From the NCBI GenBank assembly GCA_017557425.1, contig JAFYYU010000007.1, forward strand, positions 201,450 through 265,449: a stretch of DNA of 64,000 nucleotides, read 5' to 3'. Numbering within the stretch: the stretch's first letter is position 1; every line of letters begins with the position of its first letter. The notes under the pieces are model-generated. The model saw only the letters and a program-made list of their open reading frames with translations. It searched no databases and was not told where the DNA came from. The DNA comes from Muribaculaceae bacterium. GTDB taxonomy: Bacteria > Bacteroidota > Bacteroidia > Bacteroidales > Muribaculaceae. The position numbers and the translations under genes are program-made. Of this stretch, positions 2,617 to 30,092 are shown in pieces.

Positions 2617-2650
2617 AAAGTTAAGGGGCACGTTGGTGTCCCTTAACTTT
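2617..2650 (+). terminator. Terminator after DUF4923 gene
   Basis: A 15-bp stem (2617-2631 with 2636-2650, one G-T pair) closes a 4-base GTTG loop and ends in TTT, 30 bases after the stop codon. Confidence 0.75.
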
Positions 2651-2841
2651 TGGCCCCCGCCTTGGGTGTGATGATAAGAGTAATGAGGTGATTCACAGTC
2701 GATTGCGTTTTTAAAACAGGTTGGTTGCCATTCCGTTACCGTGCCGGGTGACGGTCCCCCATTGGTTGATGAATATCAATAATTTGTTGAATTTCAAAAA
2801 AATTTGAACAATCCATAGGCCTGTTTCTCGCTAAATATATA

Positions 2842-2849
2842 TAATTTTG
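2842..2849 (+). promoter_or_regulatory. -7 box of the VTC operon
   Basis: TAATTTTG fits TAnnTTTG. Its end is only 7 bases before the GTG at 2857, which predicts a leader of about 4 bases. No clear -33 TTG is seen. Confidence 0.5.
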
Positions 2850-2856
2850 CAGTTCT

Positions 2857-3648
2857 GTGGACACCATAATCAGGACATATGACCCGATTACCCTTGATGA
2901 GATGAGTGGCATCAAGTTGATGAACCGTACCGACACTAAATTTGTCACAACGGTTGACCGACTGAAGCTTTTGTTGATGCTTGCCCATGATGATTATCGT
3001 GCGCAGGATATTGACGGTAAGCGTATTGCATCATATTATACTGCTTATTTCGACACTCCTGACTACAACATGTATATCGTTCATCAGAACGGTCATGCCG
3101 GGCGTCAGAAGCTTCGCATCCGCTCTTATGTGGACTCGGGTCTCAATTTCCTGGAGGTGAAAACCAAGAACAACCACGGGCGTACCAAGAAGAAACGCGT
3201 CGACATGGTGGGCTTTGACCCCAAGCATCCTGACCACGGCATCCGCTTCATGCGCCAGGATACCCAGTACAGGGCCTATGACGAATTCCTGCGCAAGCAC
3301 TTGCGCTATGATCCCACGGTGCTGAGTGAGAAGTTGGAGAACCACTTCAACCGCATCACGCTGGTCAATAAGGCCAAGACCGAGCGCTTGACCATTGACA
3401 CCGACCTGTGCTTCCACAACCTGATTACGGGACATGATGTGGACTTGACGGGCCTGGCCATCATAGAACTGAAACGTGACGGCTTGCAGCCGTCTCCCGT
3501 CTTGGATAGGCTGCTCGAACTGCGCATCAAACCATGCGGCTTCAGCAAGTATTGTATGGGCTCGGCGTTAACCAACCCGTCGTTGAAGCGCAACAATTTC
3601 AAGGAACGCCTCCGTCTTGTCGAGCGTTTCCTGTCTCAGGTGAACTAA
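2857..3648 (+). CDS. Polyphosphate polymerase (VTC) domain protein
   Basis: A 263-residue VTC-domain protein. The eukaryotic VTC4 relative makes polyphosphate from ATP in a basic tunnel; bacterial members are mostly untested. Visible features are NRTDTKFVT near residue 26, the basic strand KLRIRSY, LEVKTKNNHGRTKKKR, and the acidic AIIELKRDG. The start is GTG at 2857: no in-frame ATG lies upstream, and a later ATG would cut the conserved ITLDEM segment. It is first gene of an operon, with DUF4956 39 bases downstream, a pairing seen in many bacteria. Catalytic activity is inferred only. Confidence 0.88.
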   Translation: MDTIIRTYDPITLDEMSGIKLMNRTDTKFVTTVDRLKLLLMLAHDDYRAQDIDGKRIASYYTAYFDTPDYNMYIVHQNGHAGRQKLRIRSYVDSGLNFLEVKTKNNHGRTKKKRVDMVGFDPKHPDHGIRFMRQDTQYRAYDEFLRKHLRYDPTVLSEKLENHFNRITLVNKAKTERLTIDTDLCFHNLITGHDVDLTGLAIIELKRDGLQPSPVLDRLLELRIKPCGFSKYCMGSALTNPSLKRNNFKERLRLVERFLSQVN

Positions 3649-3687
3649 CAATTAAGGACTTAAAACAAGAGAATAAAAACTATAAAT

Positions 3688-4425
3688 ATGATACTACTAC
3701 AAGATTTAGGACTGGAAAACGGCGCTGAGACCGTTGAGGAGGCCGTGCAAACCGTGGTTCACGGTTTCCGGTGGTATGATGCCGCCGGAGTCACCGAGAT
3801 GCTGTTGCGCTTCGGGTTTTTCTTGCTGGTATTGTTTTTTATCGTCTATCTGCTGTATTACCGCAAGACCCATCGCCGTGATTACTTCTTCACACTCGTG
3901 TTGCTCAGTGTGAGCATCTTCTTCCTGATCTATCTGTTGGGCAGTGTGAAGGTGAAAATTGGCTTTGCGCTGGGTTTGTTCGCGATATTCGGCGTTCTGC
4001 GATACCGTACCGAAACGATACCCGTCAGGGAAATGTCCTATATGTTTGGCGTCATCAGCCTGTCGGTCATTAATGCGCTTGCCGATGCTTTGAGCTTTGT
4101 TGAGCTGTTGCTGCCCAATTTGGCGATAGCATTGCTCATCTGGATGTTCGAGGCGTGGGTGCTGCGTGGTAACCTGGCGAGCAAGCTGATACAGTATGAC
4201 CGCATCGAGTTGATCAAACCTGAGCGTCGAGAGGAACTGCTTGAGGATCTGCGCAATCGCACCGGCCTGAATATCACCAAGGTGAATGTGGGTTCCGTCG
4301 ACTTCCTGAAAGACACTGCGATTCTCAAGATCGAGTACGAAAACGACTGTGTGAATGTCAGCCACGTAAATAATACGCTGAAGATACCCAGATACGAATG
4401 GGAGGATGTAAAGCAAAACAACTAG
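3688..4425 (+). CDS. DUF4956 membrane protein
   Basis: A 245-residue integral membrane protein of the DUF4956 family. Hydrophobic segments lie at about residues 38-58, 66-84, 88-106 and 120-155. They are followed by a soluble C-terminal domain of about 75 residues (after IQYDRIELIKPERREELLED). The family commonly sits beside VTC polyphosphate-polymerase genes, as here, suggesting they work together at the inner membrane. Its mechanism is unknown. The 3' end overlaps the next gene by 28 bases, suggesting coupled translation. Confidence 0.85.
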   Translation: MILLQDLGLENGAETVEEAVQTVVHGFRWYDAAGVTEMLLRFGFFLLVLFFIVYLLYYRKTHRRDYFFTLVLLSVSIFFLIYLLGSVKVKIGFALGLFAIFGVLRYRTETIPVREMSYMFGVISLSVINALADALSFVELLLPNLAIALLIWMFEAWVLRGNLASKLIQYDRIELIKPERREELLEDLRNRTGLNITKVNVGSVDFLKDTAILKIEYENDCVNVSHVNNTLKIPRYEWEDVKQNN

Positions 4426-5159
4426 TACTCAGCCTGTTGTTGCTAGGTGCCACAATGCTGCCGTTGAAGTCCCGTGCCGATGACTCGGGACTCATCGTCA
4501 GTGCTGAGGCGTCACATAAAATCAAAAAAGGTATGAATGTGGATTTCGGGACCGAATTCCGCTCCCGTAACAACTTCCGCACGGCCGACCGCGTCAGCCT
4601 GGGCGCCAGCATCAGTTACAAGGTGCTACCGTGGCTCAAGGCCAGTGGCGGCTATGACCTGCTCATCGACAATAATCATGAAAAAATCACCTATCAGGAC
4701 GATGGCGTGAGCTATAATAATTGGCGTCCCAGCTATTGGGGCGTGCGCCACCGTTTCAATGTCACACTCACGGGCAGCTACAAGGTTCAGCGAGTGGAGT
4801 TGAGCCTGCGAGAGCGCTGGCAATACACTTACCGCCCGTCTAAGCTCATCGACAATTTCGACTTTGATGAGGGCGAGTGGGAAGACCATGAAGTGCGAGG
4901 CAAAGGGAAAAATGTGCTGCGCAGCCGCCTGCAGTTGGATTGGGACATCCCCAAGTGCAAATTCGACCCGTTTGCCAGCGTAGAATTCCATACGACCGAC
5001 ATCTTGGAGAAGACGCGCTTCATAACAGGCGTGAAACACACCGTCAAGAAGATTCACAGTTTCAAGCTTTATTACCGTTACCAGAATGTGAACCGCAATG
5101 GTGACGATGATGAGCCTAATATTCACCTGGTGGGCTTGGGCTATACCTATAAATTCTGA
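4398..5159 (+). CDS. DUF2490 outer-membrane beta-barrel protein
   Basis: A 253-residue secreted protein with a signal peptide ending near SRA-DD (residue 27). Alternating polar/hydrophobic strands follow, for example FNVTLTGSYKVQRVELSLRE and HLVGLGYTYKF, the last ending in a terminal aromatic residue typical of outer-membrane barrels. The DUF2490 assignment comes from the strand pattern and length. It overlaps the DUF4956 stop and lies 5 bases before the next gene. It may provide the outer-membrane component of this operon (inference). Confidence 0.75.
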   Translation: MGGCKAKQLVLSLLLLGATMLPLKSRADDSGLIVSAEASHKIKKGMNVDFGTEFRSRNNFRTADRVSLGASISYKVLPWLKASGGYDLLIDNNHEKITYQDDGVSYNNWRPSYWGVRHRFNVTLTGSYKVQRVELSLRERWQYTYRPSKLIDNFDFDEGEWEDHEVRGKGKNVLRSRLQLDWDIPKCKFDPFASVEFHTTDILEKTRFITGVKHTVKKIHSFKLYYRYQNVNRNGDDDEPNIHLVGLGYTYKF

Positions 5160-5164
5160 CCGTT

Positions 5165-6382
5165 ATGAAGAAGGTTTTACGATATAGTCTGTTACTGTCC
5201 GCCCTGGCCCTTGCAATGGTGTCGTGCCAAAAAGATGACACCGACATGGCCGCCATTCTCGCCGAGTACCAGGTCGAGCCTGCATCGGTGGAGCTGGATT
5301 TCACCGAGCTGACTGAGGCGCCTGACGTGCCAGTTACCGACGAGAACGATTCTGCCTTCAACGATTACGAGGAGAACAGCCCTTGGAACAAGGTCATAAA
5401 TATCGCATTTGACGGCGAGAATGCCACGGTCAGCGGTAGCGTGCCAGGTGTGGCTATTCAAAGTGATGGGGCTCACTTGACAATCCTGAATCTGTCGGGG
5501 CCAGTGAAGTTTGTGGTGAGTGGCAAGACCACTAACGGGTCGCTCAAGTTCTACGGCGACAAGCGTTTCCAGATTTTGCTCAATGGTGCCGAAATCACCA
5601 ATCCCCATGGTGCTGCCATCAACAACCAGGGCAGCAAGTCATTGTATGTGGTGCTGGCCGATGGCACGGTCAACCGTTTGCAGGATGGTACTTCCTATGT
5701 CATGGTGGACGAGGAAGACCAGAAAGCTGCCCTGTTCAGTGAGGGACAAATCATCTTTAGCGGGCACGGCGAGTTGAGCGTTATTGCCGTAGGGCGCGGA
5801 GGCATCCGCAGCGATGACTACGTCCGCATCCGCCCCGGTGTGAAGATTTACGTCAACAGTTCGGCCCTTGATGGCCTGCGTGCCAACGATGGCATCATTG
5901 TTGACGGCGGTGTCGTCAATATCGAGACCACGGGGGCTGGCGCTAAGGGCGTGCGCAGTGGCGGCGTGATGACCGTTAACGGCGGTCGCATGATTGCCGT
6001 AAGTGCCGGTGACACGCGCGTAGGGCTTGACGACGATGGCCTGACCGATACCACGGCATGCGCAGCCTTATACTGTGACACATTGCTTACCGTCAAAGGC
6101 GGCGTGCTCAAATTTAAGGCTACCGGCGATGGCGGTAAAGGCCTTAACAGCAAATGGGATGCCCAATTCCAGGGCGGAACGTTCATTGCCGTGGCCACGG
6201 GAACCCGTATGGTCAAGAAACCAAAGGGCGTGAAACTGGATGGCTCCCTCTACATCAGCGGCGGTTACTTTTATAGTTATAGTAAGCGCAGCGACCCTGT
6301 GGAGACAGGTGGAACGATGCATGTGGCCACGGGCTACACGACTTATTCCCTTGGGCCGAAAGTAGTGACAATAGCCTTTTAG
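5165..6382 (+). CDS. Surface lipoprotein, Cthe_2159-type carbohydrate-binding domain
   Basis: A 405-residue lipoprotein with lipobox MVSC and Cys21. The residues after it, QKDD, resemble the lipoprotein export signal known from Capnocytophaga, so it is probably displayed on the cell surface. From about residue 70 to the end it is a parallel beta-helix protein of the Cthe_2159 family (DUF4353). That family's founding member binds acidic plant polysaccharide. The hallmark ITNPHGAAINNQ is shared with the next gene. It belongs to the VTC/DUF4956 operon, with the next gene 39 bases on. Ligand is unknown. Confidence 0.85.
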   Translation: MKKVLRYSLLLSALALAMVSCQKDDTDMAAILAEYQVEPASVELDFTELTEAPDVPVTDENDSAFNDYEENSPWNKVINIAFDGENATVSGSVPGVAIQSDGAHLTILNLSGPVKFVVSGKTTNGSLKFYGDKRFQILLNGAEITNPHGAAINNQGSKSLYVVLADGTVNRLQDGTSYVMVDEEDQKAALFSEGQIIFSGHGELSVIAVGRGGIRSDDYVRIRPGVKIYVNSSALDGLRANDGIIVDGGVVNIETTGAGAKGVRSGGVMTVNGGRMIAVSAGDTRVGLDDDGLTDTTACAALYCDTLLTVKGGVLKFKATGDGGKGLNSKWDAQFQGGTFIAVATGTRMVKKPKGVKLDGSLYISGGYFYSYSKRSDPVETGGTMHVATGYTTYSLGPKVVTIAF

Positions 6383-6421
6383 GTATTACATTGAATAATA
6401 ACCAATAACCAACGATACACT

Positions 6422-7768
6422 ATGAGAAATTTTTTATTGCTTGCATGCTTGATGACGGCGGTTTTTGCTTCTGGCGCGGTCAGGGGCGACGTTAATGACG
6501 ATCAAGAGGTTAACATTGCGGACGTCAATGCGGTAATTGAAATCATCTTTTTGAACCTGCCTGACATGGCTGCCGACGTGAACAGTGACGGTGAAATCAA
6601 CATTGCCGACGTCAATGCTATCATCGACATCATTTTGGGCGATGGAGAAGAAGAGATTACCCCCAAGGAAATTGCGCTCGACTACAGTGACCTGGAAGAA
6701 CCGGCTGAGACGATTCCTGAGGATGAAATGGCGAGTGACTATGGCGACTATGTCGAGAACACCGCTTGGAGCACGTCGGTGCACATCAACTTTGATGGGG
6801 ACACAGCTATTGTGACAGGAGGCAGCACATCTATCTTCGTTAATGTCAGTGGTGCCCATGTAAAGGTGACCAGTGCCACCAAGCGCGTGCGTTTCATCGT
6901 CTCGGGAAGCACGTCCAATGGCTCTCTCAAGATCTACAGCGAGCGCAAGTACCAGCTGCAACTCAATGGTGTGGATATCACCAATCCCCATGGCGCCGCC
7001 ATCAACAACCAGTGTGGCAAGTCGTTGTATCTGGTTGTCAACGAGGGCACCGTCAACACCCTGCGTGATGGTGACACCTATGAGATGATTGAGGGCGAGG
7101 ACCAGAAGGCGACAGTCTTCAGCGAGGGCCAGATTCTCGTCAGCGGCAAGGGTCAGCTCAACATCTACAGCACGGGCAAGAGCTGTATGACCAGCGATGA
7201 CTATATATTTGTGCGCCCGGGCACCAGGTTGTATTGCAACAGCACTAGCGGCCACGGCATCAAGGCCAAGGATTTTGTCTATATCAAGGGTGGTGTCATC
7301 AACATGGAAATTGCCGCCGATGGCGCTAAGGGCATCAATTGTGACAGCCTGGTTTACATTACTGGCGGCCGCACCACGATCATCAACAGCGGTACCACCG
7401 AGTTAAGCCTCGATAGCTTGGCCAATGTGGTATCGACGGGTGCAGCTGGTGTAAAGACCGACTGGAACATGACGATGACTGGCGGCACGCTCAATATCAA
7501 GTGCACCGGCGATGATGCCAAGGGCTTGAACGTGACAGAGCCGCTGCTGTTCTCAGGCGGAGAGCTGAATGTGGTCCTGACGGGAAAGAATGCCACGATG
7601 GACCCCAAGGGTGTGAAGTGTGACACCGACTGCACCATCAGGGGTGGGTCTTTCTACAGCTGTGCTCTTCAAGGCCGGGCAATGGACGTTAACGGAACCT
7701 TGACGGTCGTGCCTGGTTATACCGTCCTCAACGACAAGAATTATCACCTCTTCGAGGTCAAATACTGA
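6422..7768 (+). CDS. Dockerin plus Cthe_2159-type carbohydrate-binding protein
   Basis: A 448-residue secreted protein with a signal peptide to about residue 20. Two dockerin-type calcium-loop repeats follow immediately (GDVNDDQEVNIADVNAVI and ADVNSDGEINIADVNAII). A beta-helix domain closely related to the preceding lipoprotein fills the rest (ITNPHGAAINNQ; repeated GG-hxh units). It is the last gene of the operon, before a bidirectional-looking hairpin. The dockerin suggests attachment to another protein, but no cohesin is visible in the window. An extracellular role is inferred. Confidence 0.87.
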   Translation: MRNFLLLACLMTAVFASGAVRGDVNDDQEVNIADVNAVIEIIFLNLPDMAADVNSDGEINIADVNAIIDIILGDGEEEITPKEIALDYSDLEEPAETIPEDEMASDYGDYVENTAWSTSVHINFDGDTAIVTGGSTSIFVNVSGAHVKVTSATKRVRFIVSGSTSNGSLKIYSERKYQLQLNGVDITNPHGAAINNQCGKSLYLVVNEGTVNTLRDGDTYEMIEGEDQKATVFSEGQILVSGKGQLNIYSTGKSCMTSDDYIFVRPGTRLYCNSTSGHGIKAKDFVYIKGGVINMEIAADGAKGINCDSLVYITGGRTTIINSGTTELSLDSLANVVSTGAAGVKTDWNMTMTGGTLNIKCTGDDAKGLNVTEPLLFSGGELNVVLTGKNATMDPKGVKCDTDCTIRGGSFYSCALQGRAMDVNGTLTVVPGYTVLNDKNYHLFEVKY

Positions 7769-7792
7769 CGCGAACAATCTATTAAAACAGAT

Positions 7793-7820
7793 AACCGCCT
7801 TCACATGATGGCGGTTTTCT
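7793..7820. terminator. Terminator between convergent genes
   Basis: A 7-bp stem AACCGCC/GGCGGTT (7793-7799 with 7810-7816) is followed by TTCT on the plus strand. It lies between the operon end and a convergent minus-strand gene. Confidence 0.6.
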
Positions 7821-7833
7821 GTTTTCTTATGCT

Positions 7834-8538
7834 TTATTCATCAGGGTTGATCCATCGGTCCCAAGGTTCAAAAATCTCGTTGGGATCGTCGGTGCTGACG
7901 ACGTCTTCGTCGGAATAGTAGTTGCGGACGGTGTAGCGGTGCGTCACATGGTAATTGTCATAACAGGAACTGTCGCCGATAATCAGGAAAGTCTCCTCGC
8001 TCTGGAGGTCGGTGCCTTGCCAGATCATCATCGTGTAGGTGGTCTCGGCTGCCGAGCTGGACGTCCTGCGATAAACCACCATGCGGTTCGGATCGTAGAA
8101 GAAGTCGCCGTTGAATACACTGAAGCCGTCATTGGTGGCACGCGCCCAGCAATTCTCCTCACGGTCCCACAGGATCAAGGCACTGTACTCGCGGTTACAA
8201 CCTGGACCGATCAGGATATCGACATTGCCGTCGAAATTGGCATCAAAGAAGTGCACTTCGTTGCGGGTGATGGCGTCCTCCTCCCTGATGGGGAGGCTCC
8301 GCATCAGCATCCCTTCGGCATAAATCTGAATCTTGTCAATGCAGTATTCTCCCTCATGCAGTTTCACCTCAAGCGTCTCGTGCGTCGTCGGGCAGTCGGC
8401 CACCATGAACGTCCCGTACTGGTCGAGAGTCACGGCCGGTACTGCCAGGGGATTAGACTCTTGTGCCTGGGCAAAAATTACCATCAACGAAAAGACAAAC
8501 AACACGCCAAAATGTCTGAAAATATCAACTGTTCTCAT
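7834..8538 (-). CDS. Secreted protein of unknown function
   Basis: A 234-residue protein with a signal peptide (MRTVDIFRHFG to AQAQ, about residue 26). The mature part contains DANFDGNVDILIGPG, which resembles an FG-GAP or VCBS calcium-loop motif, within a beta-rich sequence. The start at 8538 is preferred over the ATG at 8559 because an AGGA-like site lies about 10 bases upstream of it, while 8559 sits almost on the promoter box. I do not recognise a named family. Confidence 0.7.
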   Translation of the reverse strand: MRTVDIFRHFGVLFVFSLMVIFAQAQESNPLAVPAVTLDQYGTFMVADCPTTHETLEVKLHEGEYCIDKIQIYAEGMLMRSLPIREEDAITRNEVHFFDANFDGNVDILIGPGCNREYSALILWDREENCWARATNDGFSVFNGDFFYDPNRMVVYRRTSSSAAETTYTMMIWQGTDLQSEETFLIIGDSSCYDNYHVTHRYTVRNYYSDEDVVSTDDPNEIFEPWDRWINPDE

Positions 8539-27173: not shown

Positions 27174-27599
27174 CTAATTGGTACCTAAAAGCAGATCGAT
27201 GAGTGCTGTGACATCGGCGATGTTCACGGCGTCATCTCCGTTCACATCCGCTGCGTCCACATTGATATTGGAGGGATCGCCGCCCAGCAGATAGTCGATG
27301 AGCGCGGTCACGTCGGCAATGTTCACTGCATTGTCCTTGTTTACATCACCGATCTGGAAGTCTGTGCCTCCAGCCTCATTGCTGAAGTACATGTTCTGCA
27401 CCTCGGCCAGGGCGATGGTTGTCGTTCCCTCGGCGTTTGTCACGGTGATGTTGCTGTTGCTATAAGTTACCTTGATGCCCTCTACCGAGCAGGTCACGGT
27501 CGAGCCGTTGGTCTTGGTGAACTTCAGGTAGTTATAGGTCTCGGCGCTGGCGCAGATGGCCACCAGTGCGATCAGCATCGTTATAATCGTCTTTTTCAT
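27174..27599 (-). CDS. Small secreted dockerin protein
   Basis: A 141-residue secreted protein, start taken at MKKTIITML (27599), with a signal peptide to ASA. A short beta-rich middle (about 20-80, LKFTKTNGSTVTCSVEGIKV) resembles small beta-sandwich modules common in these secreted proteins. The C-terminus holds two dockerin-type loops (GDVNKDNAVNIADVTALI and ADVNGDDAVNIADVTALI). It lies 45 bases downstream of the 815-residue carbohydrate-binding gene and is probably co-transcribed with it. Confidence 0.82.
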   Translation of the reverse strand: MKKTIITMLIALVAICASAETYNYLKFTKTNGSTVTCSVEGIKVTYSNSNITVTNAEGTTTIALAEVQNMYFSNEAGGTDFQIGDVNKDNAVNIADVTALIDYLLGGDPSNINVDAADVNGDDAVNIADVTALIDLLLGTN

Positions 27600-27644
27600 A
27601 TCTCTAAGTCTTTTTAATGATGTCATTGTTTATAACTACTTGAA

Positions 27645-30092
27645 TTACCAACCGCCACCACTGCTATAGTTCGAAAGTGTTACTGACGAGCCACCAGTGG
27701 CATTGGTGTAACCCTTGCCGCTCCAGAGCGAGGTGCCGGTGCCGGTCACGCCCTTATACAGCGCCGGGGTAGAGGGAGTCGATACAACCATCTTCTTGGT
27801 CGAACTGCTGCCACCAGGGTAGCCGCCACCACCTGAGAAGGTGGGCGTAATGGCTGCGAAGGCGACACTGCTGCCGCTATAGAGCGCATACCAGGTGTTG
27901 CCGCTCACCGAAGCCTGTTTGCAGGTCTGGCTGAGCTGAGCACCGCTCTCAAGGGCTCCCATGGTTGCTCCGACGGCCATGAAGCAGGCACCACTCTGGA
28001 TGTAGAGTTTAGCACCGCCCTCGGTGTTGGCGTCAAAGCCCTCTTCACTACCGTAGCAGAAGATCTTGCCACCACTGACGTACATGTTGCCATTGGAGTC
28101 GATAGCGTCGTTGCCGCTGGCTACCACATAGATATAACCACCCTTGAGGTACATGTGAGAAGCGCTGTTCAAGCCGTCATCATAGCTGGAGATCTCGATA
28201 TATCCACCGTTGATGGTCATGATGCTCTTGGTCTCGATACCTTCGGCACCAGTCTCATTCTGGCCGGGACCACCGCCACCGCCGGTAGAGGAACCGCTCA
28301 TGCCGCCAGTGGTTGTCACCTTGATGGTGCCACCGTTGATGGTGAGGTTGCCCTCGCTGCGGATGCCCTTGGGCGAGGAGTGCTTGTCACTGTTGTCTTG
28401 GCCACCGCCGCCTCCCCAGCCGCCGCCACCGCTGCTGGTCTGGCCGTAACGGCCGCCAGTGGTGGATACGGTGATGTTACCGTCATTGATGGTGAGTGTG
28501 CCGTCAACGTTGATGCCCTTGTCGCCGGCACCGGTAGCCTTGAGGTCGAAGGTACCGCCGTCGATGACCATATTGCCGTCGCACTTGAGGCCTGCGCTGG
28601 CTGCGGTCGTCTGGTCGCTGGCCGTCTCGCCGCCACCACTCACGGTACCGCTGATGTTACCGCCCGTGATGTGCAGGTCGCCCTCGCACTTGACAGCCTT
28701 GCTGGCGGGACCGGTAACGGTGTAGTTGATGGTGCCGCCGGTGATGTCCATGTTGCCCAGGCTCTTGATGCCGTGGTCATAGGTATTGAGCGTCAAGGTG
28801 CCGCCGCTGATGAGGGCGGTGCGCTCGCTGTAAACGCCGATGGCCTCGTTCTTGGTGGTCGTGACCTTGAGGCTGGCTCCGTTCAGGATAAAGGCATAGT
28901 CGGCCTTGGCACAACGCACGCTGCTGGTGTCAACGGTGCTGTAAGCCCAATCGGCGCCCGTGCAGTTGAGGGTGATGGTGCCGGCGGTGCAAGTCATCGT
29001 GCTGTCGCACTTCATGCCGCGCGCGCCATTGCCGGTCATGGTGACATTAACCACAGCCTCTTCACCGTTGATGGTGAGGTTACGGTCAGTGCCGATACCG
29101 GTAGCTTCCTTGATCTTGCTCTTGTCGCTGTCCCAAACGGGGATACCGCTATGGTTCAGCGTTAAGGTGCCGCCCTGGATGTCGATGTTACCCTCGGCCT
29201 TGATGCACTTGGTGCCGGCTGCGCTGCCGTTGATGGTCAGGGTACCGCCCTTGATGAGGACATGGCCATCCTCCTCGGGATTGGTAGTGTCCTCGGCATC
29301 GACCTGGATACCGTCGTCACCGCAGCTCTGGATGTTGATGGTACCGCCGTTCATCTGGAAGTACTGTGCCACATTGATGGCGTCGGCCACCGAGCTGACG
29401 ATGGTAATCGTGCCCACGGTCTTCTTGACCTCCATATACTCGTTGCAGGCCAGTGCATGCTTCTTGTTACCCGTGATGGTCAGCGAGCCGCCCTTGGCAA
29501 ACTCGGCATGGCCCTTCACGAGGAAGGCCGCCTTCTTGCTGTTGCTGCTGCCGTCGGCCAGGGTGTTGGTCGTGCCGTCGGCCAGCTGCACAGCGATGCG
29601 CTTGCTGTTCTGGATGTTGATGGCGGCGCTGTCGGGGTTGGTGAGGTTAACACCGTTCAGCACGAGCGTCATCTTGTAGGCGCCCGCATGGTAGAAGCAG
29701 CCGCTGCTGCTCGTTCCCTGCAGGGTGTAGGTGTACTCGCTGGCCACGCTGGCGTCCTGCATGACGGCTACGCGTGCGCCGTTCACCTGGGCCGTGATGT
29801 GGTTGGCGATATTACCGGCAACATACACCTCGGCGGTGTTGCTGCTGTACTTGACGAGGACATTGTCGTCGGCAAACGTCTCGTTGGCGACGGTAATACT
29901 GTCCACATCGGCAAGGGTGAAACCCTTCTCAAGCACGGTGAGCAGGTTGGCCGAGCTGTACGGCATCGTGCCCACCGATTCAGTGTTATAAGCCCAATGC
30001 ACATGACCCGTGTGGACCCACATGGTCTGCTGTGCATAGCCCAAAACACCCGTGATAGCAATTAATGTTGCTAGAAGGACTCGTTTTGTCAT
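27645..30092 (-). CDS. Large Cthe_2159-type carbohydrate-binding beta-helix protein
   Basis: An 815-residue secreted protein with signal peptide (to YAQQ). From about residue 85 it is a long parallel beta-helix with many repeated GGxhxhxG rungs and the family signature LTNPDSAAINIQ. Two Gly-rich segments interrupt it (about 555-575 and 605-620), and the C-terminus is Gly/Ser-rich, ending SSGGGW. Related to the proteins at 5165 and 6422 but about twice as long. No catalytic motif was seen, so binding is inferred. Confidence 0.85.
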   Translation of the reverse strand: MTKRVLLATLIAITGVLGYAQQTMWVHTGHVHWAYNTESVGTMPYSSANLLTVLEKGFTLADVDSITVANETFADDNVLVKYSSNTAEVYVAGNIANHITAQVNGARVAVMQDASVASEYTYTLQGTSSSGCFYHAGAYKMTLVLNGVNLTNPDSAAINIQNSKRIAVQLADGTTNTLADGSSNSKKAAFLVKGHAEFAKGGSLTITGNKKHALACNEYMEVKKTVGTITIVSSVADAINVAQYFQMNGGTINIQSCGDDGIQVDAEDTTNPEEDGHVLIKGGTLTINGSAAGTKCIKAEGNIDIQGGTLTLNHSGIPVWDSDKSKIKEATGIGTDRNLTINGEEAVVNVTMTGNGARGMKCDSTMTCTAGTITLNCTGADWAYSTVDTSSVRCAKADYAFILNGASLKVTTTKNEAIGVYSERTALISGGTLTLNTYDHGIKSLGNMDITGGTINYTVTGPASKAVKCEGDLHITGGNISGTVSGGGETASDQTTAASAGLKCDGNMVIDGGTFDLKATGAGDKGINVDGTLTINDGNITVSTTGGRYGQTSSGGGGWGGGGGQDNSDKHSSPKGIRSEGNLTINGGTIKVTTTGGMSGSSTGGGGGPGQNETGAEGIETKSIMTINGGYIEISSYDDGLNSASHMYLKGGYIYVVASGNDAIDSNGNMYVSGGKIFCYGSEEGFDANTEGGAKLYIQSGACFMAVGATMGALESGAQLSQTCKQASVSGNTWYALYSGSSVAFAAITPTFSGGGGYPGGSSSTKKMVVSTPSTPALYKGVTGTGTSLWSGKGYTNATGGSSVTLSNYSSGGGW

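Follow-up and report, generated by a model that had tools for sequence, protein, structure and literature searches.

The window analysed here is a stretch of 64,000 nucleotides from the draft genome (2.58 Mb, 85% complete) of a Muribaculaceae bacterium (NCBI GenBank assembly GCA_017557425.1, contig JAFYYU010000007.1, positions 201,450 to 265,449), and our subject is a set of five same-strand genes within it (window positions 2857-7768, +) that, judged by their sequences, might make polyphosphate and carry it across the cell envelope. The first gene (2857..3648, +) encodes a VTC-domain protein of 263 amino acids (aa), predicted to act in the cytosol as a triphosphate-tunnel polyphosphate polymerase (PF09359, E 6.6e-27). 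It is followed by the genes for a DUF4956 inner-membrane protein of 245 aa, a candidate translocation channel (3688..4425, +; PF16316, E 5e-52), a DUF2490 predicted outer-membrane barrel of 253 aa (4398..5159, +; PF10677, E 3.4e-28), a Cthe_2159-type beta-helix lipoprotein of 405 aa (5165..6382, +; PF14262, E 1e-38), and a secreted Cthe_2159 paralogue of 448 aa with an N-terminal dockerin-type EF-hand pair (6422..7768, +; PF14262, E 1.2e-39; Dockerin_1, E 1.6e-6). Families were assigned with the curated cut-offs of Pfam, and all five genes score above theirs. Genes 1 and 2 are separated by 39 bases, genes 2 and 3 overlap by 28 bases, and 5 and 39 bases, respectively, precede genes 4 and 5. A preliminary description of the same DNA, which had listed five genes of these families at most 39 bases apart or overlapping, is thus accurate in this respect; its operon start at 2842 has to be moved, since 2842 is an upstream stop codon and the first start codon is the GTG at 2857.

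The VTC protein scores 95 bits against PF09359 (cut-off 23), and a profile made from 41 diverse Bacteroidota VTC proteins (the window protein and 40 of 44 references, with loci L165, L171, L190 and L210 omitted) matches yeast Vtc4 at E 8.4e-21. A profile of close relatives alone reached Vtc4 only at E 0.61. VTC alignment A1 comprised the window protein and 36 of 37 relatives; the one dropped from it, L064 (G083:C134), carries an in-frame TAG in its VTC gene. Residues R24, K28, E100, K102 and K112 of the window protein align with Vtc4 R196, K200, E279, K281 and K294, and R166, R177, K206, S230 and K231 with R361, R373, K428, S457 and K458, among which we take K200, R361, R373, S457 and K458 to be catalytic tunnel residues. 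In the sequence alignment made via the 41-sequence profile, R87, R89 and E204 fall on Vtc4 R264, R266 and E426, the residues substituted to impair Vtc4 (PMC9911596). The tunnel residues, whose loss the preliminary description had regarded as fatal to its reading, are hence kept as far as alignment to Vtc4 can tell, and the protein is likely a polyphosphate polymerase. SPX and membrane domains are absent from its 263 aa, VTC being the sole domain above a Pfam cut-off, and a partner must therefore provide the membrane part.

The DUF4956 protein (176.5 bits against PF16316, cut-off 30.6) has a hydrophobic N-terminal part and a soluble C-terminal part according to its hydropathy. Its residues R105 and R107 are invariant and K88 and R114 near-invariant, all of them adjoining hydrophobic segments; in the yeast VTC complex, the translocation channel is lined by basic residues (PMC9911596). 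The alignments of DUF4956 and DUF2490 (A5 and A6) exclude frames containing X, identical proteins and one protein of outlying length each. No relative of DUF4956 was found in the PDB at E 5 or better, and, as to a possible kinship with MgtC/YhiD, the DUF4956 profile gave no match to E. coli YhiD, in a comparison of low power with a single YhiD sequence.

Both genes travel together. VTC was detected in 38 of 149 genomes of the family, and DUF4956 in exactly the same 38. Gene order was compared in 106 distinct Bacteroidales loci, 36 picked by VTC and 70 by DUF4956, which were drawn from the 37 other VTC loci of the family and from the 80 top-scoring loci of a scan with DUF4956; because the scan kept the best 80, the sample leans to close relatives. 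VTC lies directly before DUF4956 in 102 of these loci (100 by rule, together with L083, where a gap of N intervenes, and L107, with a 179-base gap), in line with the earlier remark that the two often pair; the four exceptions are L137, cut by a contig end, L144, in which VTC is inverted, and L089 and L091, without VTC. An apparent VTC-DUF4956 fusion in Bacteroides cellulosilyticus (L083) was rejected, since the join crosses the run of N, and this locus was counted as adjacent only. DUF2490 belongs to the cluster in 100 of the 106 loci (36/36 of the VTC-selected and 64/70 of the DUF4956-selected): directly after DUF4956 in 96 by rule, narrowly missing the rule in L086 and L131, and on the upstream side in L048 and L113. 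The clusters of L089, L091, L103, L139, L144 and L150 yielded no DUF2490. The five-gene form, with two Cthe_2159 genes downstream, was counted in 8/106 loci (L045, L076, L077, L078, L080, L128, L138 and L152), and such rarity makes it a local variant of a three-gene core of VTC, DUF4956 and DUF2490. Joint conservation of all five genes, as previously supposed, thus holds for this core; the full set is not universal and its Cthe_2159 genes are optional. Among named genomes, the nearest are five Bacteroidales assemblies whose DUF4956 proteins share 80-83% identity with that of the window; the label of one is roe deer abomasum, and three bear RUG names, presumably rumen genomes. A His_kinase/LytTR two-component pair (c6, found in 18 loci overall, and c5, in 21) stands after the cluster in L081, L083, L085, L095, L100, L107, L116, L128, L146 and L155, and is a candidate regulator.

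Across the phylum, VTC was found in 57 of 395 genomes, all 57 with DUF4956. Forty-four of the 65 VTC places were examined, in 38 genomes, strong DUF4956 matches being chosen first. DUF2490 is present in 15 of them and a HlyD/AcrA-like adaptor (clusters c8 or c9) in 21, and no locus has both; at the sensitivity of a Bacteroidales-built profile, the 44 stretches contain no further DUF2490. Among solved structures, the c8 profile hits periplasmic adaptors (RND fusion protein, 7.6e-10; AcrA, 1e-7; MacA, 2.2e-6), and two c9 members are HlyD-type by Pfam; the set of neighbour proteins considered (A8) comprised 74 of 91 proteins plus four c9 adaptors (L179, L183, L184 and L211). Locus L211 reads DUF4956, HlyD-type, OEP/TolC-type, VTC, and an OEP/TolC-type protein also stands beside DUF4956 in L203, a locus without VTC. 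On a Pseudoalteromonas plasmid (L216:7887-9567), DUF4956 ends at 8474 and an OprO/OprP-type Porin_O_P (E 2.4e-47) starts at 8476, and in L204 DUF4956, Porin_O_P (E 2.1e-7) and CotH follow in a row. The predicted outer-envelope slot of the VTC/DUF4956 unit is, in this sense, interchangeable between lineages, an observation new to this work, and we regard the exchange of partners as the best indication of export of the product. The preliminary description had inferred the making or attachment of an anionic polymer at the surface by a system that spans both membranes. This idea gains from the adaptor, porin and TolC-type partners; what falls away is the five-gene set as a universal unit. On the Pseudoalteromonas plasmid, a gene for a lamin-tail-domain protein precedes DUF4956.

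In the window, the slot is taken by the DUF2490 protein (99.1 bits against PF10677, cut-off 29.8), which carries a signal peptide and a C-terminal F; among 127 DUF2490 frames, duplicates included, the final residue is F in 70 and L in 35. Positions R119, R138, R175 and R177 are basic in 73/73 sequences and R207 in 99%. On the predicted strands, the hydrophilic side carries most of the conserved basic residues, random column sets being at least as extreme with a frequency of 0.007 in alignment A6 (from which L114 was left out by hand) and 0.022 in A3. This bias would suit a cationic inner face; taken alone it is weak evidence, as the charged residues of any barrel tend inwards. A comparison with the PDB gave barrel matches at chance level only.

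Genes 4 and 5 (133.6 and 136.6 bits against PF14262, cut-off 25.8) are tandem paralogues, 42% identical across 359 ungapped residues, which agrees with the shared Cthe_2159 fold already assigned to them. They differ chiefly in their N-terminal module, a lipoprotein signal in gene 4 and a signal peptide plus dockerin in gene 5. The lipobox cysteine of gene 4 followed by QKDD and the two dockerin-type loops of gene 5 (Dockerin_1, 28.7 bits, cut-off 22.9) are present as described earlier; by the signal rule for surface export of lipoproteins, the former is predicted to reach the cell surface. Gene 5 matches PDB entry 4peu (E 7.5e-10), which we take to be the Cthe_2159 protein of Clostridium thermocellum; genes 4 and 5 share a Pfam family with that protein but have other anchoring modules. 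Pfam describes the family as carbohydrate-binding. The dockerin need not point to a cellulosome, a reading not adopted here, since the genome yields a single weak cohesin match (26.3 bits, cut-off 24.1), located in a protein that itself carries dockerin-like loops. In 53 of the 106 Bacteroidales loci, one or more same-strand Cthe_2159 genes occur near the cluster, at most 2.5 kb downstream or 4.5 kb upstream, and Cthe_2159 is found in 35/38 VTC-positive vs 18/111 VTC-negative family genomes (ancestry uncorrected); it adjoins VTC/DUF4956 also in L188 and L210, both outside the class. Cthe_2159 genes are optional in the cluster, yet they track VTC across genomes. The third Cthe_2159 gene of the genome (27645..30092, -; 815 aa) lies 20 kb from the operon and precedes a small gene of dockerin repeats (150 aa), the pair spanning window positions 27174-30092 (-). 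Relatives L128, L146, L155 and L059 place a large Cthe_2159 gene just upstream of VTC, in the first three accompanied there by a small gene, and for this reason the third copy may belong to the same system. Furthermore, a cluster of small proteins (c4; 22 loci, e.g., L132:10457-10939) is encoded in many relatives, either ahead of VTC or in the space from DUF2490 to Cthe_2159; a type IX sorting domain was matched below its cut-off in one member, and another has dockerin-like loops.

The operon has recognisable borders. A hairpin behind the upstream DUF4923 gene (2617..2650, +; folding at -23 kcal/mol, z -5.56 for 2606-2655) would form its left boundary and a terminator-like hairpin its end (7785..7824, +; -21.9 kcal/mol, z -7.75 for 7778-7824); both were found by folding stretches picked by eye, and neither was listed in a consensus terminator scan, whose sites were no more numerous than in shuffles. 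The element TAATTTTG (2842..2849, +), of the TAnnTTTG type, which we take to be the Bacteroidetes promoter -7 consensus, ends 7 bases ahead of the GTG start codon. An ATG is aligned with this GTG in five close relatives, and TAnnTTTG stands 7 to 9 bases upstream of the aligned start codon in 6/6 genomes compared. With only 7 bases before the start codon, the messenger RNA would be nearly leaderless. The flanking hairpins and the conserved promoter-like element fit a single transcription unit. On its upstream side, at window positions 2766-2790, a palindrome TTGAT-GAAT-ATCAA followed by TTTGTTGA is a possible operator, perfect in three of six aligned genomes (the window, L076 and L078) and degenerate in the remaining three. 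Upstream, the operon is flanked by a gene of the PhzF family and the DUF4923 lipocalin-like gene; downstream, on the opposite strand, lie two genes with sub-cut-off Pfam matches only.

In other lineages, the surroundings of the VTC/DUF4956 pair include phosphate-related genes. An annotated inorganic phosphate transporter and a phytase-like protein come after the pair in Nitratireductor, an annotated phytase-like protein does so in Aminobacter and Shinella, and an annotated acid phosphatase (on the other strand) together with phn transporter genes lies near the pair on a Deinococcus plasmid.

We favour, with a confidence that is about even, the reading of the operon as an envelope-spanning unit for polyphosphate synthesis and export. 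The VTC protein would polymerise phosphate from adenosine triphosphate (ATP) in the cytosol, and the growing chain would pass straight to the DUF4956 protein in the inner membrane, as yeast Vtc4 delivers its chain to the channel of the VTC complex. DUF2490, as a barrel with a positively charged interior, would then let the polymer through or seat it at the outer membrane, and both beta-helix proteins of the Cthe_2159 family, the lipid-anchored one and the secreted one with dockerin-type loops, would bind the exported polymer or surface material decorated by it. Of these steps, export across the inner membrane is probable and export across the outer membrane plausible, while binding at the surface by the beta-helix proteins is possible and speculative. 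The polymerase step, for which the alignments argue well, would be independent of PPK. PPK1 (PP_kinase domain) was not found in the genome of the window, which, being 85% complete, could have missed the gene; it was found in 0/38 VTC-positive vs 15/111 VTC-negative family genomes.

The eukaryotic VTC complex (Vtc1/3/4) is among the closest known systems: it likewise joins a polymerase domain of the tunnel type, whose catalytic residues align with those of the window protein, to a membrane part, and yeast VTC couples polyphosphate synthesis to translocation (PMC9911596). It differs in that the polymerase chain of the operon is without SPX sensor or membrane domain, its partner is DUF4956, and an outer-membrane part is added. 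A broader proposal, rather doubtful at present, is that VTC and DUF4956 constitute a general bacterial device that makes polyphosphate and pushes it out, completed by a lineage-specific outer part (a DUF2490 barrel, an HlyD-type adaptor with or without TolC, or an OprO/OprP-type porin); in PPK-lacking gut Bacteroidales it might produce a surface layer with Cthe_2159 proteins as dedicated binders.

Several observations weigh against the export reading. DUF4956 occurs without VTC in 31/395 genomes of the phylum, and no VTC was found near the Pseudoalteromonas DUF4956-porin pair or beside the DUF4956-porin genes of L204. Eight of the 44 phylum VTC loci have neither DUF2490 nor an adaptor, and HlyD_3 was recognised by Pfam in only 4/18 adaptor members of the larger cluster (c8). 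The arginine-face test of DUF2490 was made against random columns rather than other charged columns, and K218 faces the opposite way, K205 and R65 being near neutral. A nearby Cthe_2159 gene is wanting in the other half of the Bacteroidales loci, although 6 of those 53 are too short to tell. The opposition of PPK1 to VTC (Fisher p 0.012) is uncorrected for ancestry, with PPK1 in 4 genera, and of three control genomes with VTC, Bacteroides ihuae and Methanosarcina acetivorans match PPK1 as well, Corynebacterium glutamicum alone giving no match.

Polyphosphate made by the VTC protein could instead be moved by DUF4956 into the periplasm only, as a store or stress buffer, with DUF2490 and the beta-helix proteins co-regulated and never in contact with the polymer. 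We consider this unlikely. Yeast VTC does deliver polyphosphate to a closed compartment (PMC9911596), and the eight phylum loci with neither outer-envelope partner would be in keeping with it; however, a predicted barrel or a periplasmic adaptor fills the slot in the other 36/44, never both, and an OEP/TolC-type protein in L211 and Porin_O_P beside DUF4956 elsewhere point further outwards.

It is similarly improbable, to our judgement, that polymer or phosphate is used beyond the inner membrane on surface glycans or proteins, the operon being an accessory of polysaccharide or CotH-kinase systems rather than the source of a polyphosphate coat. Gram-positive Pel clusters are accompanied by an accessory group of CotH, a poly-phosphate polymerase, DUF4956 and DUF4832 (PMC7112168), and VTC-domain genes have been described near CotH in Clostridium perfringens (PMC2879425, PMC11677781). 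CotH adjoins VTC/DUF4956 in Bacteroidota, in Deinococcus (before the pair in a second Deinococcus) and in Planococcus (after it), and the carbohydrate-binding label of Cthe_2159 would suit a glycan target. The operon resembles the Pel accessory group in that a poly-phosphate polymerase adjoins DUF4956 and is tied to genes for a surface polymer, but it has neither CotH nor Pel genes, and an outer-membrane barrel and beta-helix surface proteins stand in their place. CotH was found in 36/38 VTC-positive vs 75/111 VTC-negative genomes of the family (Fisher p 0.0005); as ancestry is uncorrected and CotH lies elsewhere in the genome, this enrichment does not raise the standing of a decorating role. 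The genome of the window has 13 CotH-kinase matches, none listed on the stretch of the operon, and no CotH was found in a scan of the five operon genes and four flanking proteins. The idea that CotH is a fixed partner was thus rejected, since CotH lies outside this operon and is common in the family (111/149 genomes). Besides, no glycosyltransferase family reached its cut-off in these nine proteins, the VTC protein giving a single match below it (E 0.057).

Triphosphate-tunnel enzymes include hydrolases and cyclases, and the missing SPX and membrane domains, like the failure of the close-relative profile to reach Vtc4 with confidence, might suggest a phosphatase or regulator in an operon that senses or turns over phosphate compounds, which is quite improbable given the specific assignment to PF09359, the retention of residues aligned with R264, R266 and E426, and the pairing with a membrane protein, which suits translocation better than a soluble hydrolase.

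We know of no explanation of the route by which polyphosphate reaches the exterior of bacterial cells. In gonococci, its synthesis runs via PPK and is not known to involve VTC. Polyphosphate is present on the outer surface of gonococcal cells, a likeness in that the polymer lies outside a Gram-negative cell; the abstract of that work names no VTC/DUF4956 unit (PMC10237660). In the literature searched, which left subscription papers mostly outside, no paper was found that joins the VTC domain with DUF4956 or a polyphosphate polymerase domain with Bacteroides, and, by listing alone, no work on bacterial VTC homologues was apparent. The adjacent genes BT3498-BT3499 of Bacteroides thetaiotaomicron belong to the same families, DUF4956 and DUF2490; their transcript changed -7.6-fold in iron depletion, which was not significant (P 0.175), and the table entry assigns them no function (PMC10434189). 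Judged from relatives, a VTC gene is expected next to BT3498. Thus, relatives of two operon genes are present in a tractable organism, and the VTC/DUF4956 unit with its exchangeable outer-envelope partner offers a concrete genetic candidate for polyphosphate export. If true, the export reading would give functions to DUF4956 and DUF2490, and would set the Cthe_2159 proteins in a new context in gut Bacteroidales.

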